DNA of 64,000 nt from Chloroflexota bacterium (GTDB lineage: Bacteria; Chloroflexota; Limnocylindria; Limnocylindrales; CSP1-4), in assembly GCA_004297395.1 (NCBI GenBank), contig SCUO01000036.1:1-64000 (forward strand), written 5' to 3'. The notes beneath the pieces were generated by a model, which saw nothing but the letters and a program-made list of their open reading frames with translations, was not told the DNA's origin and did not search any database. Each line of letters starts with the position of its first letter. The stretch's first letter is position 1. The translations under genes were made by a program, and so were the position numbers. Of the stretch, positions 41,536 to 63,970 are shown in pieces.

Positions 41536-43383
41536 TCAGCTCCCGCTGCTCGCCTCCGAGTAGGTCTTCGGCAGGGCCTGGGCGCGCGGCCGCCGGCGCA
41601 GGTCCTTCAGGTCGCGCTGGTCGAGCCCGGCCAGGCGGACGAGATCGGCGTTCGCCGTCCGGGTCAGCCGCTCCCGGAGCTTCGAGCTGATGAGCGAGTT
41701 CATGGCCGGGACCTCCATGAGGCTCTTCAGCGTCGCCGCCGGGACCTCGAGCAGGTCGGTCGATTCATCGGCCACGACGTTGGCCGTCCGGGTGCTGCCG
41801 GTCAGGGCCGCGATCTCGCCGAAGAAGTCGCCCGGTCCCATCGACGAGAGCGAGCGGAACTCCTCGCCTTCGGCCGGGATGCCGGCGACGACCCGGCCGC
41901 CCAGGACGAAGAACGCGGCATCGCTCGCGTCGCCGGCCCGGACGACGACGAATCCGGGCGGGGCCGTGGCGACGGTTGCGCCCGCGAGGAACTCGTTGCG
42001 GCGCTCCATCGCCAGGGCCTTGAGCTCCGGCAGGACGTCGATGAGGCGATCGAGGTCGAGCATGTTCGCCGGCCGACCGGCACCGACCGTCGGCGCCGTG
42101 GGCGTCGTCCGGAGCAGCTGGAGCGTCCGCCGCCACTCGGTCGCGGGACGGCCGAGGCCGGGCATGAACTGGGTCCAGACACCGGCCCCGGCGAGCACGA
42201 GCGAGGCGACCACGACGAGCTCCCGGACCGGGAAGACGTCGGCCAGGCCGGCGCCGGCCATGCCCACCAGGAACAGCACGTCGCGGGACACGAAGAACGC
42301 CGAGAAGACGCGGCCCCGCATGTCCCGCGGGATGTGGCGCTGCAGCAGCAGCCGCCGGGCGATCGACATGGGTGCGTTGAGGAAGCCCGTGATCATCACG
42401 AGGACGATGGCGATGTTCATCGTCGGGGCCAGGCCGTAGAGCACGCCGAAGATGCCCATGGCTGCGGTGGCCACGACGAGCCACGAGCCTTCGTTGAGGC
42501 GGTCGCCGAAGCGGGCCATGAGGAAGCTGCCGATGACGAAGCCGACCGAGGTCAGGCCCTCCTGGAGCCCGTACTCGAACTCCGTCCCGCCCAGCTCGCG
42601 AATGGCCATCGGCAGGAGCAGGACGTTCCACAGCCCGAACGACAGAAAGACGGGGGCACCGACGATGAAGATCGACCGCAGGATCGGGGTGCTCCAGAGG
42701 TAGCTCGCGCCGCTCTTCAGGTTGTCGACGACCACCCCGATGGACGTGGGCTCAGGCGCCCCGCCCTTCGGCACGCGGACGACGATGAGCAGGGCGAACG
42801 CCGCGAAGTAGGTCAGCGCGTCGATGAAGAACGGCAGCAGGATGTTCGACGAGGCAAGAAAGCCGGCGGCCGCGAAGCCGACCGCGGTCGAGCCGAACGA
42901 GCTCACTGCCAGGAACGAGTTGGCCTGGGTCAGCTCCTCTTCGGTCGCGATCTCGGGGAGCACCGCCTCCCAGGCCGGATCGAAGAACTGGCGGACCGTG
43001 GCCGAGACGAAGACCAGGCCGTACAGCGCGGCCACGAACGCCTCCGGCCGCTCCTCCGAGAAGAGCGTCATGTAGGCGAGCGGGATCCCGAGGACGATGA
43101 AGCCCCGGAGCAGGTTCGCCAGGAGCAGGATCCGCTTCTTGTCGTAGCGATCGACGAAGACGCCGGCGAACAGCCCGAAGACGAGCGTCGGGATCGCGGT
43201 GACCATCAGCACGGCGCCGACCGCGAAGGCCGAGCCCGTGATCCGGAAGATGAGGATCGCGGCCGCGAGATCCGTGAGCGCCTCGCCGATCGTGGAGATG
43301 AGCTGGGCCGACCACATCAGCGTGAAGTCGCGCTTGCCGAAGATCGCGAACATCGACCTCGAGGCGGGGGCCGGCTGGGTCAT
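41536..43383 (-). CDS. MFS transporter with C-terminal cyclic nucleotide-binding domain
   Basis: MFS core (VFGLFAGVFVDRYDKKRILL); C-terminal PPGFVVVRAGDASDAAFFVLGGRVVAG...GPGDFFGEIAALTGSTRTANVVA. Confidence 0.88.
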   Translation of the reverse strand: MTQPAPASRSMFAIFGKRDFTLMWSAQLISTIGEALTDLAAAILIFRITGSAFAVGAVLMVTAIPTLVFGLFAGVFVDRYDKKRILLLANLLRGFIVLGIPLAYMTLFSEERPEAFVAALYGLVFVSATVRQFFDPAWEAVLPEIATEEELTQANSFLAVSSFGSTAVGFAAAGFLASSNILLPFFIDALTYFAAFALLIVVRVPKGGAPEPTSIGVVVDNLKSGASYLWSTPILRSIFIVGAPVFLSFGLWNVLLLPMAIRELGGTEFEYGLQEGLTSVGFVIGSFLMARFGDRLNEGSWLVVATAAMGIFGVLYGLAPTMNIAIVLVMITGFLNAPMSIARRLLLQRHIPRDMRGRVFSAFFVSRDVLFLVGMAGAGLADVFPVRELVVVASLVLAGAGVWTQFMPGLGRPATEWRRTLQLLRTTPTAPTVGAGRPANMLDLDRLIDVLPELKALAMERRNEFLAGATVATAPPGFVVVRAGDASDAAFFVLGGRVVAGIPAEGEEFRSLSSMGPGDFFGEIAALTGSTRTANVVADESTDLLEVPAATLKSLMEVPAMNSLISSKLRERLTRTANADLVRLAGLDQRDLKDLRRRPRAQALPKTYSEASSGS

Positions 43384-45153: not shown

Positions 45154-46422
45154 TCAGGCCTCGAAGCGCCGGAAGACCGCGACCGCGTTCTGGCCGCCGA
45201 AACCGAAGCCGTTGATCATCGCCGTGTCGACCCGCAGCTGACGCTTCACGTTCGGGGTGTAGTCGAGATCACACTCCGGGTCCGGCTCGCGGTAGTTGAT
45301 GGTCGGCGGGATCCAGCCGTCCTTGATGGCTCCGACCGCGGCGATGCCGGCGACCGCTCCGGCCGCGCCGAGCATGTGCCCGACCATCGACTTCGGCGAG
45401 GAGATCGCCAGGCTGGCCGCCCGGTCGCCGAAGGCCCGTTTGATCGCCTTCGTCTCGGTCACGTCGTTGAGCGGGGTCGAGGTGCCGTGGGCGACGAGGT
45501 AGTCGACGTCGGTCGGCCCGATGCCGGCATGGCGCATCGCCCCGGCCATCGCCATGGCTGCGCCGCGGCCCGTGGGCTCCGGCGCCGAGATGTGGAAGGC
45601 ATCGGCCGTCAGGGCCGCCCCGATGAGCTCGGCCAGGATCGGCGCGCCGCGAGCCAGGGCATGCTCCGCGGATTCGATGACCATGACCCCGGCCCCCTCG
45701 CCGAAGACGAAGCCGTCGCGGGTCCGATCGAACGGCCGGGAGGCGCCCTCGGGATCATCGTTGCGCTTCGAGAGGGCGCCCATGTTCGACAGGGCGGCGA
45801 AGGCCATGGCCAGGAGCGGCGCCTCCGAGCCGCCGGCGATGACCACGTCGCACTCGCCGCCGGCGATGAGCCGGAGGGCGTCCTGGAAGGCGATGACGCC
45901 CGAGGCGCAGGCGGCGACCTGGGTGATGACCGGCCCGGTGAGCCCGTAGCGCATCGATACCTGGGCCGCGGCCATGCTGCCCGAGAGGGCCGGGATGGCG
46001 AACGGGCTGACCTGCCCGGGGCCCCGGTCGCGAATCGTGTTGGCGCCCTCGATGACCTGCTCCATGCCGCCGCCGCCGGTGTTCAGGACGACCGCGGCCC
46101 GATCGCGCTGCTCCGGGGTCCAGGTCGAGAAGTCCAGCCCCGCCCGCCCGACCGCCTCGGTCGCGGCCGCCATCCCGAAGTGGATGAAGCGGCTCATCCG
46201 ACGGGCCATCTTGCGGTCCATCGCGACGTTGGGGTCGAAGCCCTTGACCTCGGCCGCGATCTTGACGTCGTGGCCCGTCGTGTCGAACGTCGTGATCGGT
46301 CCGCCGCCCGGCTTGCCGGCGAGGAGATTCGTCCAGAACGTCTCGGCGTCATTGCCGATCGGGGTGACGGCCCCCATCCCGGTCACGACGGCCCGGCGCG
46401 CTGGATCCTGGCTAGGCGGCAC
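45154..46422 (-). CDS. fabF: Beta-ketoacyl-ACP synthase II (KAS II)
   Basis: VVTGMGAVTPIGND, AACASGVIAFQDAL, VAHGTSTPLNDVTET, SMVGHMLGAAGAV. Confidence 0.93.
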   Translation of the reverse strand: MPPSQDPARRAVVTGMGAVTPIGNDAETFWTNLLAGKPGGGPITTFDTTGHDVKIAAEVKGFDPNVAMDRKMARRMSRFIHFGMAAATEAVGRAGLDFSTWTPEQRDRAAVVLNTGGGGMEQVIEGANTIRDRGPGQVSPFAIPALSGSMAAAQVSMRYGLTGPVITQVAACASGVIAFQDALRLIAGGECDVVIAGGSEAPLLAMAFAALSNMGALSKRNDDPEGASRPFDRTRDGFVFGEGAGVMVIESAEHALARGAPILAELIGAALTADAFHISAPEPTGRGAAMAMAGAMRHAGIGPTDVDYLVAHGTSTPLNDVTETKAIKRAFGDRAASLAISSPKSMVGHMLGAAGAVAGIAAVGAIKDGWIPPTINYREPDPECDLDYTPNVKRQLRVDTAMINGFGFGGQNAVAVFRRFEA

Positions 46423-46474
46423 GGGCTGCTCCTCTGGGTCGGGTCATCGCGGGCGATTGTAGCCGCGCCGACCC

Positions 46475-46598
46475 TGACGGCCGCTCAGGTGCGTTCGGCG
46501 CAAGGCGGCCCGGAGCAGGCGAAGCGAGCGCACTCCAACGTGCGTGAGCGAGTCGCGCACGGGCCAACGCGGCGCCGGACGCGCATCAGCGGCCGTCA
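46475..46598 (-). repeat. Long imperfect hairpin between two fabF paralogues
   Basis: Outer arms TGACGGCCGCT (46475-46485) / AGCGGCCGTCA (46588-46598) exact; pairing continues imperfectly to a GCGCAC-tccaac-GTGCGT centre. Confidence 0.65.
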
Positions 46599-47870
46599 AT
46601 CGCCGTCGTAGCGCTTGAAGATCACCGCGCCGTTGTGCCCACCGAGGCCGATGTTGTTCGAGAGGGCGTAGCGGATCGGCATTCGGACCGTTTCGTCGAC
46701 GACCCAGAGGTCGCACTCGGGATCCGGGTCGCGGTAGTTGAGGGTCCCGGGCACGGTCTGCTCGGCGACCGACATGACCGTGGCGAAGGCCTCGAAGGCC
46801 CCGGCTGCGCCCATCATGTGGCCGGTCATCGACTTCGTGGCGCTGATGGCGAGCGAGCGCCGGTCCCCGGCCGCCCGATCCCCGAAGACCGCCCAGATGG
46901 CCTCGGCCTCGCGGGCGTCGCCGACCGGGGTCGAGGTGCCGTGCGGGTTGATGAGGTCGACCTCATCGGCCGGGACGCCGCGGCGGTCGAGGGCCATCCT
47001 CATCGCCCGCGACGAGCCCGTCCCGTGCTCGATCGGCTGGATCATGTCCCAGCCGTCGGCGGCCGACCCGTAGCCGACCACCTCGGCGTAGATCCGGGCT
47101 CCGCGGGCCTTGGCCAGCTCGAGGTCCTCCAGGAACAGCCCGCCCGCGCCCTCGCCCAGGACGAAGCCGTTGCGCGTCGCGTCGAACGGTCGTGAGACCG
47201 TCTGGAGGGGCTCGCCGGGCCGGGGCGAGCCGAGGCCGCGCATGTTGCCGAACCCGGCGTGGGCGACCTCGATGAGTGGCGCTTCGGTCGACCCGCTGAT
47301 GACCGCGATGCAGTCGCCGCGACGGATGACCTCGGCCGCCTCGGCCACGTTGTGGGTCCCGGTGGCGCAGGCCGAGACCATGCACACGTTGTGGCCGATC
47401 GCGCCGGTCTCGATGGCGATCATGCCCGACGTCGAGTCGACGAGGGCGTTGGCGATGAACGTCGGCGGGACGCGGTTGGGGCCCTTGTCGTGGAGCGTCT
47501 TGTAGCTCTCGATCATTAGGCGCTGCCCGCCGGCGCCGGAGCCGAAGACGACGCCCACGTCGGTCCGGTTGGCGTCGCTGATCTCGAAGCCCGAGTCGGC
47601 CAGGGCCTGCTTGGCCGCGGCGACGCCGAAGTGCATCTCGCTCTCGCTGCGGCGCACCGCCTTGGCGTCCATCCAGGCGGTCGCCTCGAAGTCGCGGACC
47701 TCGCCGGCCGCCTTCTGCTCGTAGCCGGAGACATCGAACCTGGTGATCTCGCCCAGGCCGGACACGCCGTTGACGAGGTTGGACCAGGCGGTCGACACGT
47801 CGTTGCCGACCGGGCTGATGACGCCAAGGCCGGTCACGACGACGCGGCGGTTGTAGTCGGGTCTGCGCAC
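46596..47870 (-). CDS. fabF: Beta-ketoacyl-ACP synthase II paralogue
   Basis: VVVTGLGVISPVGNDV, SACATGTHNVAEA, NPHGTSTPVGDAREA, SMTGHMMGAAGAF; start refined to GTG 47870 with AAGGAG SD (ORF track 47921). Confidence 0.92.
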   Translation of the reverse strand: MRRPDYNRRVVVTGLGVISPVGNDVSTAWSNLVNGVSGLGEITRFDVSGYEQKAAGEVRDFEATAWMDAKAVRRSESEMHFGVAAAKQALADSGFEISDANRTDVGVVFGSGAGGQRLMIESYKTLHDKGPNRVPPTFIANALVDSTSGMIAIETGAIGHNVCMVSACATGTHNVAEAAEVIRRGDCIAVISGSTEAPLIEVAHAGFGNMRGLGSPRPGEPLQTVSRPFDATRNGFVLGEGAGGLFLEDLELAKARGARIYAEVVGYGSAADGWDMIQPIEHGTGSSRAMRMALDRRGVPADEVDLINPHGTSTPVGDAREAEAIWAVFGDRAAGDRRSLAISATKSMTGHMMGAAGAFEAFATVMSVAEQTVPGTLNYRDPDPECDLWVVDETVRMPIRYALSNNIGLGGHNGAVIFKRYDGD

Positions 47871-47892
47871 TTGGGGCGGCTCCTTCGGGTGG

Positions 47893-48867
47893 TCAGGCGT
47901 CGCCCGGGGACGGGGCGGCAAAGGGCAGGGCTAGTCGGTCGGGGGCGGCCGGGTCATCCACGGCGACGACCTCGACTCCGGTCGCGATGCGCTTGATCAG
48001 GCCGGTGAGGACGCGGCCGGGGCCGATCTCGATGAACGTGTCGACGCCGGCCGCGACCATCGTTTCGACGGCCCGGACCCAGTCGACACCCGTGGTGAGG
48101 TGCTCGACGAGCTCGGCTCGGCAGGCGTCGCCAGTCGTGAGCCGCCGCGCATCGGCGTTGCCGAGGAGGGGCGTGGACGGGTCCGCGAAGTCGACCGTCG
48201 CCAGCACCTCGCGCATCGCAAAGGCGGCCTCGGCCATGAGGGGCGAATGGGCGGCGACGCTCACCGGGAGCACGATCGCGCGCCGCGCGCCGAGCTCCTT
48301 CGCGATCTCGGCGCCGGCCTCGATGGCGGCCCGCTCGCCGGACGCCACGACCTGGCCCGGGGCGTTCCGGTTGGCGACGACGAACGTCCCTGCGGCGCCG
48401 GCACGGGCCACGAGCTCGGGGAGGTGGACGTCGTCGAGGCCGATGATCGCGGCCATCGCGCCCTCGTGATCCTCGCCCGAGGTCTGCATCAGCCGGCCGC
48501 GTTCGCGGACGAGGCGAATCCCGTCGGCCAGCGAGAGCACGCCGGTCGCCACCATCGCCGAGTACTGACCCATGGAGTGGCCGGCGGCGAACGCGGGCGT
48601 CGGGGCTGCGATCCCGGCGGCACCCCAGCGCTCGTTGATCGCGGCGAGGTACGCGATCGAGGTTGCGAGGAGGGCGGGCTGGGCGTTCTCGGTCAGGTTG
48701 AGGACGTCCTCCGGGCCACCCCAGGCAAGCGCGCTGATCGGCTCGTCGAGGGCGGCATCGGCGGCCTCGAAGACCGAGGCCGCGGCCGGCGAGGCGGCGG
48801 CGAGGGCCTGGCCCATGCCGACCGCATGGGAACCCTGGCCGGGGAAGATGAATGCGACGCTTGCCAT
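47893..48867 (-). CDS. fabD: Malonyl-CoA:ACP transacylase
   Basis: FIFPGQGSHAVGMG, AGHSMGQYSAM; start refined to ATG 48867. Confidence 0.93.
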   Translation of the reverse strand: MASVAFIFPGQGSHAVGMGQALAAASPAAASVFEAADAALDEPISALAWGGPEDVLNLTENAQPALLATSIAYLAAINERWGAAGIAAPTPAFAAGHSMGQYSAMVATGVLSLADGIRLVRERGRLMQTSGEDHEGAMAAIIGLDDVHLPELVARAGAAGTFVVANRNAPGQVVASGERAAIEAGAEIAKELGARRAIVLPVSVAAHSPLMAEAAFAMREVLATVDFADPSTPLLGNADARRLTTGDACRAELVEHLTTGVDWVRAVETMVAAGVDTFIEIGPGRVLTGLIKRIATGVEVVAVDDPAAPDRLALPFAAPSPGDA

Positions 48868-51845: not shown

Positions 51846-53450
51846 CTACATCTCGCCCATGCCGCCATCGCCCATGATGTGCCAGACGCCCATCATCCCG
51901 ATGTCCTCGTGCTCGATGATGTGGCAATGGATCATTGCCATCCCGGCGTAGTCCATGACCGGCATGAGGAGCTCGATCTTGCCCATACGGGGCACGATCG
52001 TGACGTCCTTCCAGGCCGGGATCGTGGTGTAGAGGCTCGCGTAGCCGGCGTCTCCACCCGTGATCGAGAGGACCTGGGCCGAGTTCGTGTGGTGGTGGAA
52101 GGGGTGATCCATCCCACTCGAGTTGACGATCTCCCAGATCTCCCAGGTGCCCACGTCGGACATCGTCATGTAGCAGTCTTCGTGGCTGAGGTACGTGCGG
52201 CCGTCGATGCCGACCGCGCCCATGCCCATCGTGAGGGTCATCCGTTTTCGCTGGGCCACCATCGAGAGATCCGTCACCCGCACGGCCGACGGGTCGACGG
52301 CCGACGGGATCGCCTGGTTCTGCTTCGCTCCTCCGTACGTGAGCGTCATCAGCGTGATCTGCTGCTGCGCGCTCATGCCGCCGCGGCCGTAGGGCAGTGA
52401 CAGCCACTTGTAGGAGCCCGACTTCAGGGTGGCCCTGACCAGGACGTCGATTCGCTCGCCCGGGGACAGAAGGATCTCGCCGATGGGGTACGGCTTGTCG
52501 AGGAGGCCGCCGTCCGTCCCGACGAGGTACATCGTGTGGTTCTGCAGGCTTAGCCGGAAGAATCGGGCGGTGCAGGCATTGACGACACGCCAGCGCTGCA
52601 CCTGGCCCGGGGCGATCGCCAGGCGCGGATTCACCTGGCCGTTGACCATCACGGTGTTGCCCTCGACACCGTGCATGTAGTCCATCTGCGAGTCGTGCGG
52701 CGCCGGCACGGATCCGGCCAGGGTGATGTCCTTGAGGACGAGCACCTTCTCGGCGAACGGCTTCAGCGCATCGACCCCGTCCTCGACGACGAGCGGTGCC
52801 GACATGCCGCCCCACATCTGGTCGGTGACGCTGCCGTGGATGTGGGGGTGGTAGAAGTTCAGGTTGCCGGCCGGATGGTTCGAGAGGTCGTACTCGTACT
52901 CGAGGCTGTCGCCCGGGTCGGCCATCGCCAGCATGCAGTCGCCGAAGGTGCCGTTGGCGTTGGCGTCGGGCGTGACGTGCAGACCGTGGGTGTGGATATT
53001 CGTCATTCGCGTCGAGTGGCCGAGGAAGTTGGTCTGGCCGTCATTCGGCAGCGCGTTCCGAAAATGGAGCTTCAGGAGCTGGTCTCGACGGACGCGGATC
53101 ATCGGCCCCGGAAACTGGCCGTTGTACGTGACCAGGTTGGCGACCGTGCCGTTGACATCGACCAGTGCTTGCCGCGCCTCGATCTCGACCTCGACAACCG
53201 CCGGATCGATCGACATGTTCGTAGCGAGCGTCGGCAGCCGGAGCGCCGCTCCGACGGGCGGATCGATGACGGCAACGCCACCGCCCCCCATTCCGCCTCC
53301 GCCGCCGCCGCCGCCCCCTGGGCCCATGCCACCCCCGCCCATGCCGTTGCCCGGTCCCGCGCGGACGACGGATACGAGCGGCGACACGTACAGCGCGGTA
53401 CCCGCGAGTGCAGCGCCTTGAATGAACTGGCGCCTCGTGATGCGCTTCAT
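51846..53450 (-). CDS. Multicopper oxidase 1 (Tat-like signal, Gly/Met-rich N-terminus)
   Basis: NIHTHGLH, FYHPHIHG, DHPFHHHTNSAQVL, IHCHIIEHEDIGMMGVW copper motifs; RRQFIQGAAL. Confidence 0.92.
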   Translation of the reverse strand: MKRITRRQFIQGAALAGTALYVSPLVSVVRAGPGNGMGGGGMGPGGGGGGGGGMGGGGVAVIDPPVGAALRLPTLATNMSIDPAVVEVEIEARQALVDVNGTVANLVTYNGQFPGPMIRVRRDQLLKLHFRNALPNDGQTNFLGHSTRMTNIHTHGLHVTPDANANGTFGDCMLAMADPGDSLEYEYDLSNHPAGNLNFYHPHIHGSVTDQMWGGMSAPLVVEDGVDALKPFAEKVLVLKDITLAGSVPAPHDSQMDYMHGVEGNTVMVNGQVNPRLAIAPGQVQRWRVVNACTARFFRLSLQNHTMYLVGTDGGLLDKPYPIGEILLSPGERIDVLVRATLKSGSYKWLSLPYGRGGMSAQQQITLMTLTYGGAKQNQAIPSAVDPSAVRVTDLSMVAQRKRMTLTMGMGAVGIDGRTYLSHEDCYMTMSDVGTWEIWEIVNSSGMDHPFHHHTNSAQVLSITGGDAGYASLYTTIPAWKDVTIVPRMGKIELLMPVMDYAGMAMIHCHIIEHEDIGMMGVWHIMGDGGMGEM

Positions 53451-53544: not shown

Positions 53545-55629
53545 TTAGGCCCCCGGCTCGCCGGACTGGACCGGGCCGATGCGGTAGGGCCGCATCATCT
53601 CGTTGTCTTCATGCTCGACGATGTGGCAGTGCCAGACGAACTGGCCTGGCTTGTCGAACTTGACTCTCAGGCGCGTGACTTCACCCGGATACGCGATGAC
53701 CGTGTCCTTGAAGCCGCTTTCCCAGGCTTCGGGCGCGCGAGGATCACCAACGAGCTCAGCCGGCTGCGTGGCCTCACCGTCCTCGACTGCCAACGCCTGC
53801 CGATTGACAACTTCGAAGGTCACCTCGTGCACGTGCATGGGATGGGCGTCGGCGGTGAAGTTGAAGAACTCCCAGACCTCGGTGTCCCCGACGTTCGGGT
53901 TCTCGGTGACCGGATCGGCCCACATCTTCTCGTGTGCCTTCCCGTCATCATCCACAATGCCCAGCACGGCTTCGGACGGCCCATCGTGGACCTCCGACAT
54001 CATCTCGATGAGAGCCAGGGGCCGCGTGAACGTCTCGGCCGGAAGCGGCGTGATCGCCGGCAGCCGGAGGAACTCGGGGGGCGTCGTCGGGTCGGCCCCA
54101 ACTGCGGGGACGACCCGGAGCTGCAGAACCTGGCCCGTAGTGTCGCCGTCAGCGATCGGGAAGTCATCGCCGGGAACGCCGCCGCCGAACGGTTCGTCAG
54201 GACCCACGTTGCCGAGGACATAGTTGCCGACGGGCACGTTGGTGAAGTCGACGATCATGTCGGCACGTTCGGCGAGACCCATGAGAAGCCGGTTGTCGTG
54301 ATCGGCCGTGATGTTGACCGGCGCGGCGAGGAAGCCGCCCTCATTGCCGATCTGCCAGACCTCGACACCCGGGATGGCGTTGAAGTCGAGGATCAGGAAT
54401 CGCGACTGGCAGCCGTTCAGGAAGCGGAAGCGATATCGCCGCTTCTCGACCTGCTGGAACGGCCACGTGTTGCCGTTGACCATGATCGTGTTGCCGAAGA
54501 ATTCGGGGTTCCAGATCGGCGACACGTTACTGTCGGGGATGTAGGGTCCCGTGAACTCGTCGAAGAACGCCCGGGTGTCGGGGTAGAAGAGCGAGCCGTC
54601 CGCATTGAAGCTGCGGTCCTGGATGGCGATCGGGATCTCGTAGTAGGTCTTGTTGGGCGGGAACATGTCGCCGGCCTGTGGCGCCGGGCCGGGCAGCACG
54701 GCTGGGGTCGCCTTCCGGAAGCGAGTGTCAAGGACGGCCCTGTCGCCGGCCGGGCCGCCGCGGACGATGTAGAAGCCGGCAGGACCGGCGTAGACATTCA
54801 GCCGGGTCATGCCGAGGGCATGGTCGTGGTACCAGAGCGTCGAGGCCCTGTTGTCGTTGGGGTACTGGAAGACGGCGAAGCCCGCCCCCCAGTCGGCGCC
54901 ATATGCGGTCTCGGCCTTGCCCCTGAAGAAGTCGTACCACGTTCCTTCAGTGGCGTATCCGGCCGGGATGGTGTCGGTGTCTGGCAGGTACCAGGCCTCG
55001 GCGTAGCCGTCGCTGTCGTCGGCGACGCCGACCGCGCCGTGAACGTGGGTGACCAACGGGACCGGGCCTGTGTACGAATCCGGAGTCGATTCGAACACCG
55101 GTCGGGAGTCGCGTGGACCGTACCCGTAGGCGTCGTCGTTGCCCTGTGGCGGATTCGCCCAGTGGAGCGTCGGGTCGACTGGCAGCAGGTGCGGTAGGAA
55201 GGTGCCGTTCTCGTCGACGAGGTCGTTGATCCACTTGACCTGGACCGGGCGCTTCCATTGCGCCTCGATCGTCAGCGACGGCGCGTTGTGGATCAGGAGC
55301 GGGTTCTTGCCCGCCCCGGTCACGGCGCCGTAGCCCCAGACGGTCGTCTCTGGCATGCCGACTGGCAGGATCTGCTCAGGGAACTGCCGGACCGAGATCT
55401 CGTAGAGATCGCCCGGCTTGCCGCCCATCATCGGCTTCGTCCCGGCCCGGGGCATGACCGGCGGGATGAGGAGGGGCGTCTGGTACTTGGGAATGCCGAG
55501 CGGGTCGAGCGTGCCGCCCGGGATCGACACTGCCACGACAACACGCCGTCCGTCGATGAAGGTCGACAGGAAGAGCGCGGTCCCGGCGCAGGCCGAGCCG
55601 TACAGGAACTGACGTCTCGAGAGTGTCAT
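53545..55629 (-). CDS. Multicopper oxidase 2 (bilirubin oxidase/CotA-like)
   Basis: VTHVHGA, WYHDHALGMTRLNVYAG, HPMHVHEVTFEVV, VWHCHIVEHEDNEMMRPY; start refined to MTLSRRQFLYG at 55629. Confidence 0.92.
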   Translation of the reverse strand: MTLSRRQFLYGSACAGTALFLSTFIDGRRVVVAVSIPGGTLDPLGIPKYQTPLLIPPVMPRAGTKPMMGGKPGDLYEISVRQFPEQILPVGMPETTVWGYGAVTGAGKNPLLIHNAPSLTIEAQWKRPVQVKWINDLVDENGTFLPHLLPVDPTLHWANPPQGNDDAYGYGPRDSRPVFESTPDSYTGPVPLVTHVHGAVGVADDSDGYAEAWYLPDTDTIPAGYATEGTWYDFFRGKAETAYGADWGAGFAVFQYPNDNRASTLWYHDHALGMTRLNVYAGPAGFYIVRGGPAGDRAVLDTRFRKATPAVLPGPAPQAGDMFPPNKTYYEIPIAIQDRSFNADGSLFYPDTRAFFDEFTGPYIPDSNVSPIWNPEFFGNTIMVNGNTWPFQQVEKRRYRFRFLNGCQSRFLILDFNAIPGVEVWQIGNEGGFLAAPVNITADHDNRLLMGLAERADMIVDFTNVPVGNYVLGNVGPDEPFGGGVPGDDFPIADGDTTGQVLQLRVVPAVGADPTTPPEFLRLPAITPLPAETFTRPLALIEMMSEVHDGPSEAVLGIVDDDGKAHEKMWADPVTENPNVGDTEVWEFFNFTADAHPMHVHEVTFEVVNRQALAVEDGEATQPAELVGDPRAPEAWESGFKDTVIAYPGEVTRLRVKFDKPGQFVWHCHIVEHEDNEMMRPYRIGPVQSGEPGA

Positions 55630-55796: not shown

Positions 55797-58700
55797 CTAG
55801 GGGTTCGTGATGATCGGGAAGGGGGTCGCGTTGACCCATGCGGACGAGCCGACACCGTTGTTGGCCCGGATCCGGAAGTAGTAGGTGGTCGCCTTGCTGA
55901 GGTTGCCGATGGTGGCCGTGACCGCATTGGACGCGACCGAGGTGTTCACGACGCCGGTGGTGAAGGTCGGGTTCGTCGCCCGCTGGATCGTGAAGCCGGT
56001 CTCGTTCGTCGCGTTGTCGGTCCAGGTGAGGGCGACTGCGCGCTTGTTGCCCTGATTCGCGCCGTTGACCGCCGTCAGGTTGGACGGGGCCGCCGGGAGC
56101 GGATCTGAAGCCGCCGTGCTGGCGACCAGCGAGTAGGCGGACAGCGTTGGAACTCCGCCGAACAGGTTGACGGCCGCGACTCGATACTCGTACTGGGTCG
56201 CGGGCTGGATGGTCGTGTCGGTGAACGTGACATTGCCGGTGTTGGTCCGGAGCGGTGCCACCGCAATCCGGGCGAACTCCCCGACGCCGAGGACGCGTCG
56301 TTCGATGACGAAGCCGCCCTCGTCGGTGGCGTTGTCACGCCACGTCAGTCGGGCCTGGGGGCCAGCCTGCAGCGTGGCGGTGAGGAGGCTCGGTGCCAGC
56401 GGCGCCGCCGTCGGCGGCGGCCCGACCGGGGCCGGATCCGAGAAGGACCGGGCTGTGACACTCGGGTACGCGCCACCGTAACCCACGGTGTTCTGCGCCA
56501 CGACGCGGTACAGGTACGCCGTGTTCACGTTCGAGCCACCGTCGCGAAGACTGCGCGGCTCATGGAGATTGGGCGCCGTCAACGGCGACTGGAGCGTCCC
56601 CGCATTCGTCCAGGTAAGGCCGTTCGTGGTCCGCTGCAGGAGGAACGACGTCTCGGTGATCGAGTTGTCGCTCCAGGCAATGACGAACCGTTGGTTGTTG
56701 CCCACTCCGGTGATCGTGGCCGACAGTCCGTCCGCCTCGAGCGGCGGGACCGCGACCAGCACCGGCCGCATCATGTCCATCTCTTCGTGGCTCAGGATGT
56801 GGCAGTGATACACGTACTCCCAACCGAAGTTGACGAGTGCGTTCAGGATCGTGGTCTCGGTCCCGTCAGGAGCCATGATCAGCCCCATCGGATCGAGGTT
56901 CGCGTTGTCGGGCATCATCGGGCTCAGGTTCCGGACACTGTTCGGCACCTCGAACGGCAGGGTCGGGATGATCGGTCGCAGGGCGACGTAGGTGTCCTGC
57001 AGCGGGTTCATCCGGACCGTGTCCTTCCAGCCGAGCTCGTTCGGCTCGGTCGGGCTGATGATGTTGTCCCAGGCCACCCGGTTGAGGACCTGGACGTCGT
57101 ACAGGTGGAAGTGGATCGGGTGGGTATCCACGCCGTTGTGGGTGATCTTCCAGATCTGCGTCCCGTCGCTGCCATCCGAGATGGCGGTGACGTTGAGGTC
57201 GCCCTCCGGCAGGTTCGTGGCGTCGATCACCTCGGTGGGTGGCGCGACGTACGGGTAGAGGTAGATGTTCTGCAGGGCGGGCGTCGCCGGCACGGCCTCG
57301 AGACCGAGGTTGGCCGTCATCCGTCCGAACTCGTCGAAGGCGGACGAGTTCATCTCGTCGTGGATGGCCTTCGGCTGGAGTGGGATCTTCAGCTGCGGGT
57401 TGCTCGCCAGCAGGTTGTCGAACCTGAACAGATCACCGCCCTGCTGGTTGATCCGCGCCATGCCGTCGCACCGGTTGGTGCCGTTCGGATCGGAGCAGTC
57501 ACTGGCTGCGCTGAACGACGTGCCGTAGGCCGAGTTGTAGGCAGCCTGACCGACGATGATCGGGTGCTGCCCTTCCTCGAACACGCCACTGCCGTCCGCG
57601 TGGTGCCTGAACGCCGCATTGAGCGCCGACAGGTTGAATGCGGGAGCGGCCGTCACGTCGGCGACCCTGACCTGCATGATGGTCCGGGTGTTCGGGCCGT
57701 AGCCGGGCAGGGTCAGCCCGTCCGGTCCGCCGGTGTAGTAGTCGTACTGCGGAACCCGGGCGGGGAACGCCGCGGGAGCGTCGTTGTAGAGGATCAGCGT
57801 CTTGCCCGCGAACTTCGAGAAGTCGACGATCACGTCCGCCCGCTCGGCGGGCGCGAGGAGCAGCGAGTGCTTGTCCACGTTGCCGACGTCGAATCGCGTC
57901 GGGTCGGTGATCCAGGTCGTGACCTGCTGGCCGTCGATGACGACCGGGGCGGGTAGGAACCCACCCTCCGTACCGATCTGGACCCAGTCCGGACCGGCCG
58001 GGCTCTGCGTCGTGTCGACCGTCGGGAAGACAACCGGGTCGGTTTGCGCGGCGGCTACTTCGGCCGCATTGAGCGCGACCTCGGTGTCGTCCGTTGGGTC
58101 AGATGGCGTTCCATTGTCGTCGGCGATGTACCACTGGAGATTCCAGAAACGGTCATTCGCGGCGTTGAGGACCCGGAACCGGTACGACTGCGGCTGCAGC
58201 GAGGTGGTCGGGTACGCCGTGCCGTTGACGATCGGCGTGTCGTTGAACTGCTCCATCCCGGCCGAGATGTTCGGCGTGCCCGGGATCTGGGCCGGCTCGC
58301 AGAACGGGTCTTCCTGGTACTGCCACGTCGCGGGGTCGTCCAGGTCACACGCAGGGTCGTAGTACGGGTTGGCGATCGGCGGGAATTGGGGCGTGGCCGG
58401 CGGCCAGAAGAACGGGCCGTACATCCAGCGGCCGTAGGCGCTCATCCCGGACGGGTCGCCCGGGTTCTGCGCCGGCATGTAGACGTGGTGGTACCAGAGG
58501 TTGCCCTCGCCGCCCCAGCGACCGGTATCCCATGTCGGGTCCTGCTCGAGAAGCTGGCCCGTCGACGGGACGAACGTCCGGTCCTGGATGATGAGCGGGA
58601 TCTGGTCGGCCGGGATGGTCCCGTTGGCAACCAGCTTCTGCTCGGTCGGGTCGGTGATCAGGTAGCCGGCAGCCTCGCCGGCGTAGACGTTGAGGCGGGT

Positions 58701-61040
58701 GATCCCCCACGCATGGTCGTGGTAGAACATCAGCCGCGCCGACTGCTGGTTCGTGTAGTAGAAGGTCTGGCACCCGTCACCGGCGGCCGAGCAGTCCGGC
58801 ACGTTCGCCGGCCTGCCCCCGCCGATCATGTCGGGCACGTTCTGGACCGCGACCCCCTGCGGCCACGGCGTGTTCTCGTTGGCGGGCGTGATCCACTGGT
58901 GCGGCGTGCCGTCGCTGATCCACGGCGTCACTCCACCGTGGAGGTGGAGCGTCGCCCGGTTGTCCTTGAAGCACCCGATCGGCTTCGGGTACTCGGTGCA
59001 TTCCGGATTTCGGATCTCGTCGGTGACGGTGCCCTCATCCATCGGCATGTCCATGGCCATGGGGCCCATGCCCGAGCCCATGATGGTCGAGTCGACCGGC
59101 AGGAACAGGTCGCCCGCGGCGCCTGTCGGGAGCAGGTTGTAGAAGACGATCCGGACCGCCTTGTCCTTCGTCGCGACGATCGTCGGGCCGAGGTAGTGCG
59201 GCGCAGTGACGCCCATGGCCTGCGTGCCATCGGGCATCAGCGCCGGGACGGATGTGCCGTCCAGCAGGTCATTGCTGAGGGCCACGCCGCTGCCGTCGGT
59301 GGTCAGCTGCACGTACTCACGGAGCAGCGTACCGGCGGCGGGCAGGCTCGAGCTCATCCGCTCCCGGTGCTGGATCACCGCGATGACGTAGTAGTCGGCG
59401 TTCGCGAAGGTCGTCGTGTCGGGCACGGCGACGGGGATGTACTGGCCGAGGTTGTTCGCGTTGCCCGCGCCGAGACCGGGCAGCGTGTCCTGGAACTTCT
59501 TGATGCCGCCAGGGGTCAGGTAGCCTGAGCCGCCGGTCAGCAGGTTCAGCTGGGTGATCGCGCCGACATCGGTCGTGGCCGTCGCCGTCGCGCCGGTCCC
59601 ACCGCCGCCGAACGTGATATCGGGGGCCGAGGTGTAGCCCGCCCCGAAGGTGTCGAGGATGACCGCCTGGACCTTGAGGGTCGCCGTGCCCTCCGCTGCG
59701 GTGAACGGATCGAGGCCGTGCGCGACCGGGTCGAACTGCGACCCGTCGCGGATGACCACGGCGGGGGCCGTCGCGTACCCGGAGCCCGGGGAGTCAACGA
59801 CGACGCCGGTGACGGTCAGGAAGTCCGTGTCAGCGGTCAGGTTGCAGTCCGGATACGGGGCAGCACAGACAGCGTGGCCCGTCGCCTTGACACCGCTCGG
59901 GTCGTCCGGCAGGTCGAAGTCGACGGTCGGGAACTTGTAGCCGGTCCCTTCGGCCACGATGCTGACCGCGTCCACGCCACCGAGGACGTGCGCGGTCGCG
60001 TCAGTGGTCGCTCCGCCCCCGCTGATCGTGACGGTCGGGGCCGTGTAGCCACCGCCCTCCGCCGTGACGTCGACAGAGGTGACGGCACCGGATGCCTGGA
60101 CGAACGCCTCTGCGGTCGCCCCGTCGGCGGCCGGGTTGGAGCTCGAGATGGTCACCGACGGCTGCGACGTGTAGCCGCTGCCGGGATCGGTGATCGTCAG
60201 GCCGGTCACCGCACCGTTGGCCCCGACCGTGGCCGTAGCGGTGGCCCCGCCGCCCGCTGGCGTGCCGGGGGGGAGGATGGTCGCCGCGAACGAATAGGTT
60301 CGTGGGCCGGCAAGGACGGGGAACTCGGTCCCACCGACGACGAACGTCCCGGTCGTGGGCGGAGCCGCCGGCGACGGGTAGTACACGCCATCCGTCCCGG
60401 CGTTGATGTCGAGCGGGATACCCTGGCCGTAGAAGGCGATGAGATCGCCCGCCAGCACGTCGACGGGTGCCGCCGGAATCCAGACCTCGACCTGGTCGAC
60501 GCCGGCGACGGCCGGCGGCGGGACGGTCAGGAGGCCACTGTCGAAGACGACCTCGTACTCATTCGTGGTCGCGGTCGCCCGCAGGACGTAGGCGTGGAAC
60601 TGGTTGCCCTCCGACACGAGCGCCGGATTGCCGACGGTCTGGTTCCATGTCCGGAAGTCCTGCAGCGTCCCGGCGACCAACGGCGTCGGGAGGACGACGA
60701 GCACCTGGCCCAGGCCCGGATTGCCGGATCCCGTGGTAACGAAGGTGTCGTCGCTCGCATACGTTCTGGCCTGGAGCGGGTTGCCGATCGTGACCGACGC
60801 GATCGGCGCCGGATCGATCGTGACGCTGACGTCGGGGAGCGTCTGCGGGCTGTTCGCCCAGTTCGGGTATGGCCCGAAGTAGTGGGGGACCTTGGTCTCG
60901 TCGGTCGCGCTGATTGGCGCCGACGCGACGATTGGCGCGGCGACCGAGTTGCCAGCGGGCCGGCTCAGTGCGATTGCGGGGGCCGCGGCGGCCTGGCAGA
61001 TGGCCAGGGCCATCAGCAGCGCCCCCAGTCTCCTTGTCAT
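55797..61040 (-). CDS. Giant multicopper oxidase 3 with N-terminal 'GSGYTxxPxV' repeats and C-terminal FN3-like domains
   Basis: About 1747 aa from ATG 61040 (signal ALLMALAICQAAAAPAIA); TLHLHGGVTPW, MFYHDHAWGITRLNVYAG, HPIHFHLYDVQVL, VYHCHILSHEEMDMMRPV copper motifs; three FN3-like blocks at the C-terminus. Confidence 0.9.
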   Translation of the reverse strand: MTRRLGALLMALAICQAAAAPAIALSRPAGNSVAAPIVASAPISATDETKVPHYFGPYPNWANSPQTLPDVSVTIDPAPIASVTIGNPLQARTYASDDTFVTTGSGNPGLGQVLVVLPTPLVAGTLQDFRTWNQTVGNPALVSEGNQFHAYVLRATATTNEYEVVFDSGLLTVPPPAVAGVDQVEVWIPAAPVDVLAGDLIAFYGQGIPLDINAGTDGVYYPSPAAPPTTGTFVVGGTEFPVLAGPRTYSFAATILPPGTPAGGGATATATVGANGAVTGLTITDPGSGYTSQPSVTISSSNPAADGATAEAFVQASGAVTSVDVTAEGGGYTAPTVTISGGGATTDATAHVLGGVDAVSIVAEGTGYKFPTVDFDLPDDPSGVKATGHAVCAAPYPDCNLTADTDFLTVTGVVVDSPGSGYATAPAVVIRDGSQFDPVAHGLDPFTAAEGTATLKVQAVILDTFGAGYTSAPDITFGGGGTGATATATTDVGAITQLNLLTGGSGYLTPGGIKKFQDTLPGLGAGNANNLGQYIPVAVPDTTTFANADYYVIAVIQHRERMSSSLPAAGTLLREYVQLTTDGSGVALSNDLLDGTSVPALMPDGTQAMGVTAPHYLGPTIVATKDKAVRIVFYNLLPTGAAGDLFLPVDSTIMGSGMGPMAMDMPMDEGTVTDEIRNPECTEYPKPIGCFKDNRATLHLHGGVTPWISDGTPHQWITPANENTPWPQGVAVQNVPDMIGGGRPANVPDCSAAGDGCQTFYYTNQQSARLMFYHDHAWGITRLNVYAGEAAGYLITDPTEQKLVANGTIPADQIPLIIQDRTFVPSTGQLLEQDPTWDTGRWGGEGNLWYHHVYMPAQNPGDPSGMSAYGRWMYGPFFWPPATPQFPPIANPYYDPACDLDDPATWQYQEDPFCEPAQIPGTPNISAGMEQFNDTPIVNGTAYPTTSLQPQSYRFRVLNAANDRFWNLQWYIADDNGTPSDPTDDTEVALNAAEVAAAQTDPVVFPTVDTTQSPAGPDWVQIGTEGGFLPAPVVIDGQQVTTWITDPTRFDVGNVDKHSLLLAPAERADVIVDFSKFAGKTLILYNDAPAAFPARVPQYDYYTGGPDGLTLPGYGPNTRTIMQVRVADVTAAPAFNLSALNAAFRHHADGSGVFEEGQHPIIVGQAAYNSAYGTSFSAASDCSDPNGTNRCDGMARINQQGGDLFRFDNLLASNPQLKIPLQPKAIHDEMNSSAFDEFGRMTANLGLEAVPATPALQNIYLYPYVAPPTEVIDATNLPEGDLNVTAISDGSDGTQIWKITHNGVDTHPIHFHLYDVQVLNRVAWDNIISPTEPNELGWKDTVRMNPLQDTYVALRPIIPTLPFEVPNSVRNLSPMMPDNANLDPMGLIMAPDGTETTILNALVNFGWEYVYHCHILSHEEMDMMRPVLVAVPPLEADGLSATITGVGNNQRFVIAWSDNSITETSFLLQRTTNGLTWTNAGTLQSPLTAPNLHEPRSLRDGGSNVNTAYLYRVVAQNTVGYGGAYPSVTARSFSDPAPVGPPPTAAPLAPSLLTATLQAGPQARLTWRDNATDEGGFVIERRVLGVGEFARIAVAPLRTNTGNVTFTDTTIQPATQYEYRVAAVNLFGGVPTLSAYSLVASTAASDPLPAAPSNLTAVNGANQGNKRAVALTWTDNATNETGFTIQRATNPTFTTGVVNTSVASNAVTATIGNLSKATTYYFRIRANNGVGSSAWVNATPFPIITNP

Positions 61041-61848: not shown

Positions 61849-62526
61849 TCAGGTGAACGAGCGGTAGAGCCTGCCGGCCTCGCGGCGATTGTCGACGTTC
61901 AGCTTCCGGAGCACGTTGCTGACGTGCGTCTCCACGGTCCGCTGGGACAGGGTCAGTCGCTTCGCGATCTCGCGATCCGTGTAGCCCTCGGCGACGAGCC
62001 GGAGGACCTCGGTCTCACGCGGGCTGATCTCGTTGCCGGCGGCCCCGATCGGGGTCGGAGCCCGCCGCGACCGCTCGGCCAGGTTGCGGACGAGGCGAGC
62101 CGCCATCTGGCGGGGCACGACGAGGTCGCCACGGTGGGCGCCTCGGACGGCTCGCACGAGGGCCTCCGGGGCGACATCCTTCGTCAGGAACCCGGCGGCG
62201 CCATTGCCGACGGCATCGGCGACGTCGGCATCGTCCGTCGAGACCGTGAGCATGACGATGCGGGTCGCCGGGATCCTCGGCGCGAGCTCCCTGACAAGAT
62301 CGACGCCATTCATGCCGGGCAGGCCGATGTCGACGAGCATGACATCCGGACGCAGCTGCGGCGCAAGGCTGAGCGCATCCTCCGCGGTGGCCGCCTCGCC
62401 CACGACCTCGATGCCGGGCTTGCCGAGAGCCTGCCGGATCGCGAGCCGGACGAGCGAATGATCGTCAACGAGCATGACCCGGATCGGGCCCGTGGGCGCC
62501 CCGGCGATCGGCTGACGAGACTGCAT
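61849..62526 (-). CDS. NarL/FixJ-type response regulator with LuxR HTH
   Basis: VMLVDDHSLVRLAIRQAL receiver; SPRETEVLRLVAEGYTDREIAKRLTLSQRTVETHVSNVLRKL HTH. Confidence 0.93.
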   Translation of the reverse strand: MQSRQPIAGAPTGPIRVMLVDDHSLVRLAIRQALGKPGIEVVGEAATAEDALSLAPQLRPDVMLVDIGLPGMNGVDLVRELAPRIPATRIVMLTVSTDDADVADAVGNGAAGFLTKDVAPEALVRAVRGAHRGDLVVPRQMAARLVRNLAERSRRAPTPIGAAGNEISPRETEVLRLVAEGYTDREIAKRLTLSQRTVETHVSNVLRKLNVDNRREAGRLYRSFT

Positions 62527-62527
62527 G

Positions 62528-63970
62528 TCAGGCTCGGCCGCCCACCGGCGAAGCTGGGTTGGCTGCACCGCCGATCGGGGCAACGACGAGGATCTCCGTT
62601 CCGTGGCCGGGAACGGAGTTGATCGTGAGCCGACCACCGACGAGGGCCGCTCGCTCCCGCATGGCCGACAGTCCGAAGCCGGCGTCCGCGACAGAAGCCG
62701 GGTCGAAGCCGATGCCATCGTCGGCCACCGTGAGGAGCACCTCACCGCGGTAATGCTCAACCCGGACGGTGACACTCGACGCGCCGGCGTGGCGACGGAC
62801 GTTGGCCAATGCCTCCTGGGCGATCCGCAGGAGCTCGGCCTGCGTCCGGGCCGGCAGGGCGGGCAGATCCGGCCGACAGTCGAACTCCACCCGGAGCCCG
62901 AACCGATCGGCGTGGTCTTCCAGATAGCGACTGAGGAGCGGCCCGAAGTGGGGCGACGTGTCAGCCGAGATCCGGATCGCGAGCACCGCCTGTCGAGCCT
63001 CGCTGAGCCCGAGCTCGACGGCCTCCGTCGCCTCTCGGGCGAGTGCCTGGGCATCCGCGGACAGGTGGCTCTCGGCCGTCAGCCTGGCCAGCTTGAGCTT
63101 GGCCAGCCACAGCGCCTGGGCGAGCCCGTCGTGCAACTCCCGTGACAGCCTGGTGCGCTCGTCGATCGCTGCCCGATCGACCTCGGCCGCGCGCATGGCC
63201 TCGAGGGCCACGTTCGCTCCCCGGAGGGCCCGCATGATCGCCGAGGCCTCGGCCTCGATGGCGAGGAGCAGCACGATGTCGAACCCGAGCCGGAGGACGT
63301 CGGCGCTCGTGACCGGCCCGGGATGGGTTCCGGGGAAGACGGCGGCGTGGAGCTGGGCGAATGCCGCGAGGATGAGCCCAAACGCGATGTAGCGATCGCC
63401 GATCGAGCCGTCCCGGCGCCAGAGCAGTCGGGTGAGCCAGGCCCCAATCCCGTACAGGACGGCCCCGAGGAGGTGCAGGCCAACCCCGAAGGGCGTCATG
63501 CGTGGCGCGACCTGGTCGCCGGTCGGGCCGTCGACGAGCGCAGGCAGCGGAGCATTGGCCTCGACGAGGAAGATGAGGGCCAGGACCGCGAGCCCCACCA
63601 CCAGCACGAGCGTGCGGGGATGCGCCGGCGACCGACCTCGCAGCGAGGCGACGCCGCCGGCCACGATCAGGGCCCCGCCCAGGAGACGCGCCCAGGCGAA
63701 GATGTGGAGATGCTCCGGGCCGGGCTCGACCGTGGACAGCGTGGAGTCGCCATGGGTGACGATCGTCCCCACGACGCCGCCCAGGTTGCCCAGGGCGATC
63801 GCGAGGAACGCGGCGGCTTGATACACCGCGAACGCATCGTGACGCTCGCGGAAGCGGATCCATGCCAAGCCGGCGACCGTCATGGTGACCACCATCGCGA
63901 TCGTGTCGAGCGTCAGGTCCAGCGCGGGAGCCACGACCCGGAGCGCCGGATTCGGCGGGGCGAACGCCAT
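62528..63970 (-). CDS. NarL-type membrane sensor histidine kinase (HisKA_3/HATPase)
   Basis: ERTRLSRELHDGLAQALWLAKLKL, LRIAQEALANVRRHAGAS, VADDGIGFD; start could lie beyond the window end. Confidence 0.9.
   Translation of the reverse strand: MAFAPPNPALRVVAPALDLTLDTIAMVVTMTVAGLAWIRFRERHDAFAVYQAAAFLAIALGNLGGVVGTIVTHGDSTLSTVEPGPEHLHIFAWARLLGGALIVAGGVASLRGRSPAHPRTLVLVVGLAVLALIFLVEANAPLPALVDGPTGDQVAPRMTPFGVGLHLLGAVLYGIGAWLTRLLWRRDGSIGDRYIAFGLILAAFAQLHAAVFPGTHPGPVTSADVLRLGFDIVLLLAIEAEASAIMRALRGANVALEAMRAAEVDRAAIDERTRLSRELHDGLAQALWLAKLKLARLTAESHLSADAQALAREATEAVELGLSEARQAVLAIRISADTSPHFGPLLSRYLEDHADRFGLRVEFDCRPDLPALPARTQAELLRIAQEALANVRRHAGASSVTVRVEHYRGEVLLTVADDGIGFDPASVADAGFGLSAMRERAALVGGRLTINSVPGHGTEILVVAPIGGAANPASPVGGRA

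Follow-up and report, generated by a model that had tools for sequence, protein, structure and literature searches.

We describe here a giant multicopper oxidase (MCO) encoded in the first 64,000 nucleotides of contig SCUO01000036.1 of a Chloroflexota bacterium (GenBank assembly GCA_004297395.1), a stretch referred to below as the window. The gene lies at positions 55797 to 61040 on the minus strand and encodes a protein of 1,747 amino acids (aa). We read the product as a secreted oxidase of metal ions that has the fold of CotA laccase, belongs to the MofA/OmpB superfamily, is held to a surface by accessory modules, and is switched by a two-component system; the probability of this statement as a whole is put at roughly 0.5. 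The giant MCO is real and apparently intact, and it fits well into a family that is known but poorly characterized.

A preliminary description, drawn from the sequence alone, had reported a very large secreted MCO with four copper-ligand motifs in one open reading frame (ORF), and both points stand. A signal peptide is predicted at the N terminus, and the motifs HLHGG, HDHAW, and HPIHFH and a fourth, HCHILSHEEMDMM, which begins at residue 1412, are found in CotA-like order with every ligand. All 12 copper ligands are invariant in 96 of 96 aligned cores, as are D710 and E1419, which align with the second-shell residues D116 and E498 of CotA. Because of this invariance, a catalytically complete four-copper enzyme would be the default expectation. 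A domain profile search and an AlphaFold model had also been proposed as checks. Pfam matched Cu-oxidase_2 (E=1.2e-12) and fn3 (E=9.5e-10, in two significant stretches), and the modeled core (pLDDT 78, pTM 0.85) takes the CotA fold. CotA laccase was the best fold match of the core (E ~1e-32, target TM 0.76 to 0.80) and the best PDB match to a sequence profile built from an alignment (E=4e-60).

The core has the three-cupredoxin fold of CotA of Bacillus subtilis (PDB 1gsk), with the same ligands and the same second-shell Asp and Glu, but is ~20% identical to it in the structural alignment. CotA is a compact spore-coat enzyme of ~510 aa, whereas the giant MCO has a signal peptide and extra N- and C-terminal modules. 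Long insertions, several of them modeled with low confidence, enlarge the core to ~930 residues versus ~505 in CotA. PhsA, bilirubin oxidase, and CueO are in the same MCO superfamily and detectable by profile, but they lack the accessory modules, and the NCBIfam scores of the core are far under the equivalog cut-offs for PhsA (o-aminophenol oxidase, the best named model; 129 versus 950 bits) and CueO (54 versus 525 bits). The CotA fold and the PhsA match, distant as it is, would fit a laccase-type enzyme acting on extracellular phenolic or humic matter, as would the many homologues among soil Actinomycetota. The family tie to mof operons and the Met-rich loop described below argue against such a role, and no aromatic-catabolism genes were found among the scanned neighbors; we consider it unlikely.

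The tie to mof operons comes from gene order and identity. A five-gene mof operon is known from Rubrivivax A210 and extends the mofABC operon of Leptothrix discophora (PMC8218464), and MofC-like proteins combine cytochrome c and periplasmic-binding domains (PMC5566968). At three of our homologous loci (L116, L127, and L131), genes for an FKBP isomerase, SCO1, a cytochrome c/periplasmic-binding protein, and a small exported protein are followed by the MCO gene, and loci of this type resemble the OmpB/MofA clusters of PMC5566968. Locus L121 contains the same five mof-type genes, most of which are present at other loci. The window protein is 44 to 46% identical over residues 513 to 1520 to the MCOs of mof-type loci L114, L116, L121, L127, and L131 and was therefore filed in the MofA/OmpB superfamily; this placement, which relies on the likeness of these operons to those of PMC8218464 and PMC5566968, is very probably correct. 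In a tree of the cores, made with a quick method and with SH-aLRT as the only branch support, the mof-type MCOs sit beside the window clade within one family. The window protein belongs to a separate subclade, one that lacks mofB and mofC, and is not classed as a mof operon member. It resembles MofA of L. discophora in its CotA-type core family, very large size, and secretion and differs from it in its Met-rich loop and GxGY repeats. Of the MnxG and MofA families named in the preliminary description, MofA is the one to which the protein is related. An MnxG-type assignment is unsupported, since the NCBIfam, profile, and fold searches make the core CotA-type; judged from named matches alone, the fold and profile searches returned CotA and no match named MnxG. 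We found no solved structure of the MofA/OmpB family.

Residues 654 to 690 contain on average 5.3 Met in the window clade but 1.1 among the mof-operon MCOs, and the giant MCO has a Met-rich loop here (residues 654 to 667). Because of this loop, Cu(I) would be at least as likely a substrate as Mn(II). The loop would equally suit copper homeostasis, with a secreted cuprous oxidase detoxifying Cu(I) alongside the adjacent CueO-like MCO. That enzyme, the third MCO on the same strand, is itself Met-rich, and a CopC-CopD gene adjoins homologues in Cryobacterium and Arthrobacter. However, neither a copper pump nor a chaperone was recognized beside the window gene, its size and accessory modules are atypical of copper-tolerance MCOs, and the genome's only SCO1 match is on another contig. 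We consider this explanation a serious rival, though an improbable one. A Cu-oxidase_3 protein is encoded ~1 kb from the SCO1/SenC gene elsewhere in the same genome (G000:C48:12720-14527).

For the metal oxidase that we favor, Sec export would deliver the giant MCO outside the cell. The type 1 (T1) copper (H1307, C1413, H1418, and M1423) would accept single electrons from a small extracellular reductant and pass them to the trinuclear cluster of type 2 (T2) and type 3 (T3) coppers, where O2 would be reduced to water. Extracellular O2-dependent oxidation is the best-supported chemistry. Cu(I), Fe(II), and Mn(II) would be the likeliest substrates, and the chances that the physiological substrate is a metal ion are about even. 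Mn oxidase activity is reported for Bacillus pumilus CotA (PMC3618234), and because of that report the CotA fold would be compatible with manganese. We infer that the giant MCO may oxidize Mn(II) or Fe(II).

Several observations weigh against this reading. No mofB (FKBP), mofC (cytochrome c), or SCO1 gene is found beside the giant MCO gene, unlike mofA; its neighbors encode a histidine kinase, a response regulator, and two MCOs. The EXXE motif, which binds Fe in OmpB, occurs twice, with ~1.4 occurrences expected from composition (50 Glu in 1,747 residues). As this is not above chance, it was dropped as a sign of iron binding. CotA-type enzymes also oxidize phenols and bilirubin. Finally, relatives occur in anaerobes such as Geomonas and in metagenome-assembled genomes of methanogens, for which a role that depends on O2 is harder to see.

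Such relatives bear on a further explanation, OmpB-like electron transfer to insoluble Fe(III) or Mn(IV), in which the copper sites serve as an electron relay and not in O2 reduction. OmpB and OmpC of Geobacter sulfurreducens are large outer-surface MCOs, of which OmpB carries an FN3 domain (PMC5566968; PMC3495685), as does the giant MCO. This literature counts in favor of a relay, as does the presence of relatives in Geobacteraceae, Desulforhabdus, and Methanoperedens. The family members in Geobacteraceae genomes reach ~70% identity to the window core, but in those seen, GxGY repeats are absent or few, and the window locus has a two-component system where OmpB and OmpC have cytochrome and SCO1 neighbors, a comparison that takes OmpB and OmpC from the literature. 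No neighbor of the window MCO gene was recognized as encoding a cytochrome, and the trinuclear-site ligands and second-shell Asp and Glu are fully conserved; we consider a relay very improbable. At six loci in different phyla (L059, L061, L079, L091, L092, and L130), a gene for a MauG/CCP-type cytochrome, diheme where complete, lies directly 3′ of the MCO gene.

The accessory modules flank the core. The preliminary description had counted about six N-terminal repeats and three C-terminal FN3-like blocks, and both counts were recovered. Six GxGY motifs lie at residues 287 to 504 (~60.18 to 59.53 kb), versus a mean of 0.17 and a maximum of 2 when the region was shuffled; two FN3 blocks are significant in Pfam, and the remaining one (residues 1441 to 1536) is FN3-like only in the alignment with them. 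In the model of the N-terminal half, most blocks are confident and the repeats form high-confidence beta structure, and this half (beta domain plus repeats) had no PDB fold match at E≤0.001. The repeats match PHROGs virion structural proteins (E=8e-21) and baseplate families, and cyanophage structural proteins are ~29 to 32% identical to them across ~90% of the repeat region. They are thus a module shared with phage virion and baseplate proteins; the likeness is confined to this module, and nothing points to a common function. The repeats and FN3 domains are probably spacers or adhesive modules that anchor the protein on the cell envelope, in the matrix, or on a mineral surface. One family member of 4,057 aa (L052:4357-16527) contains 33 GxGY motifs before its HLHG motif and 4 after it, and tandem family MCOs in one Chloroflexota genome (L053:6323-11065 and L053:12405-17108) have 11 to 12 motifs inside the core, not N-terminal of it.

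The architecture had been called unusual, which did not hold up: by predicted domains it is not new, and its layout recurs in close relatives from several phyla. In 37 of 87 full-core homologues, at least three GxGY motifs precede the core; in 60, an FN3-like match follows it; and at least 22 have both, counted with an FN3 model that was built from the window blocks and may miss divergent domains. Carriers of both modules include cultured Cellulomonas, Kineosporia, Terrabacter, Intrasporangium, Tessaracoccus, and Desulforhabdus. Close homologues built in this way therefore exist, but none was found that has been biochemically characterized. A full homologue was found in 0 of 14 same-genus genomes. 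In a sample of the phylum, 23 of 400 genomes matched at E≤1e-20, the own genome included, and two others are of the same family. A contig scan yielded at least 80 loci, in Geomonas, Citrifermentans, Desulforhabdus, many Actinomycetota, Anaerolineaceae, methanogens, and Methanoperedens. Among the matches listed, from Chloroflexota, Actinomycetota, Thermodesulfobacteriota, archaea, and others, best-segment identity is at most 72%. The only matches in a plasmid collection were MCOs of the ordinary kind and a single FN3 protein (25 to 34% identical). The window core groups in the tree with Desulforhabdus, Hydrogenedentes, Geomonas, and Actinomycetota, apart from most Chloroflexota, which suggests horizontal transfer. 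Family members are also present in methanogen, Methanoperedens, and Bathyarchaeota genomes (L103, L106, L111, L123, L125, and L128), in which one would not expect an oxidase that uses O2.

The upstream two-component system probably turns the gene on upon a metal or redox signal. Homologues of the histidine kinase at nine other loci, which are all of its non-self matches, lie just upstream of an MCO gene on the same strand. The closest kinase and response regulator relatives are at L088 (47% and 60% identity) and L043 (42% and 58%). In Chloroflexota, the window subclade often has a two-component system upstream. At L088, a second MCO gene with a similar motif pattern adjoins the first. The kinase-regulator pair, the two downstream MCO genes, the beta domain (residues ~85 to 262), and the Met-rich loop were absent from the preliminary description.

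The protein begins MTRRLGALLM, with a predicted mass of 183.6 kDa and a pI of 4.4, and a purine-rich stretch, AGCGAGGAA, lies 5′ of its ATG. The top hydrophobic 19-residue segments all begin at residues 4 to 9, with none near the C terminus; a hydrophobicity scan found no further clear transmembrane segment beyond the N-terminal signal. GC per codon position is coding-like and the same as in neighboring genes, and the order of kinase, regulator, and MCO genes recurs in other Chloroflexota, so an assembly artefact or contamination was rejected as the main reading. The features are collected in Table 1. Elsewhere in the window are a gene for a fusion of an MFS transporter with a cyclic-nucleotide-binding domain (41536-43383; Pfam MFS_1 and cNMP_binding) and two tandem beta-ketoacyl synthase genes (45154-47921, minus strand).

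Table 1. Features of the giant MCO and its neighbors, all on the minus strand (window positions)
Feature	Residues	Position	Basis or remark
Histidine kinase (HisKA_3, HATPase_c; weak N-terminal MASE3 match), upstream		62528..63970	Pfam
NarL/LuxR-type response regulator, upstream		61849..62526	Pfam; start codon inferred
Giant MCO coding sequence	1,747 aa	55797..61040	Continuous ORF
Sec-type signal peptide (predicted)	1-24	60969..61040	Hydrophobicity; cleavage site inferred
Conserved motif VPHYFGPYPNWANSP	51-65	60846..60890	N-terminal in many homologues, ≤85% identity
Beta-rich domain	~85-262	60255..60788	Found in a subset of homologues
Six GxGY beta-repeats	263-512	59505..60254	Motif scan, homologue comparison, model
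CotA-type MCO core	513-1432	56745..59504	Pfam, NCBIfam, PDB sequence and fold matches
Met-rich loop MGSGMGPMAMDMPM	654-667	59040..59081	6 Met in 14 residues; low pLDDT
HLHGG	T2/T3 H699, H701	58932..58946	Both His invariant, 96/96
HDH (in HDHAW, residue 774)	T3 H774, H776	58713..58721	Invariant, 96/96
HPIHFH	T1 H1307, T2 H1310, T3 H1312	57105..57122	His invariant, 96/96
HCHILSHEEMDM	T3 H1412, T1 C1413, T3 H1414, T1 H1418, axial M1423	56772..56807	Ligands invariant, 96/96
FN3-like block 1 (weak)		56433..56720	Alignment with blocks 2 and 3
FN3 block 2		56121..56411	Pfam fn3; PDB FN3 matches over residues 1545-1740
FN3 block 3		55800..56102	Pfam fn3 best stretch, residues 1651-1736
Second MCO, CotA/PhsA-like, Tat signal		53545..55629	Begins 167 nt after giant MCO; start inferred at Tat motif
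Third MCO, CueO-like three-domain, Tat signal, Met/Gly-rich N terminus		51846..53450	Pfam, NCBIfam

The literature links the MofA/OmpB family to the cycling of Mn and Fe but calls the functions of its members still unverified. More speculatively, the Met-rich, GxGY-bearing subclade might be a distinct set of surface-attached metal oxidases, transferred between phyla and, in Chloroflexota, working with companion MCOs under the control of a dedicated two-component system that senses metals or redox state, an idea we hold to be rather improbable. Two concrete, separable predictions follow from the Met-rich loop and from the conserved kinase-regulator pair. Since the subclade has close relatives among cultured Actinomycetota (Cellulomonas, Terrabacter, and Kineosporia) and in Geomonas, the substrate question could be tested directly in them, without the uncultured organism.
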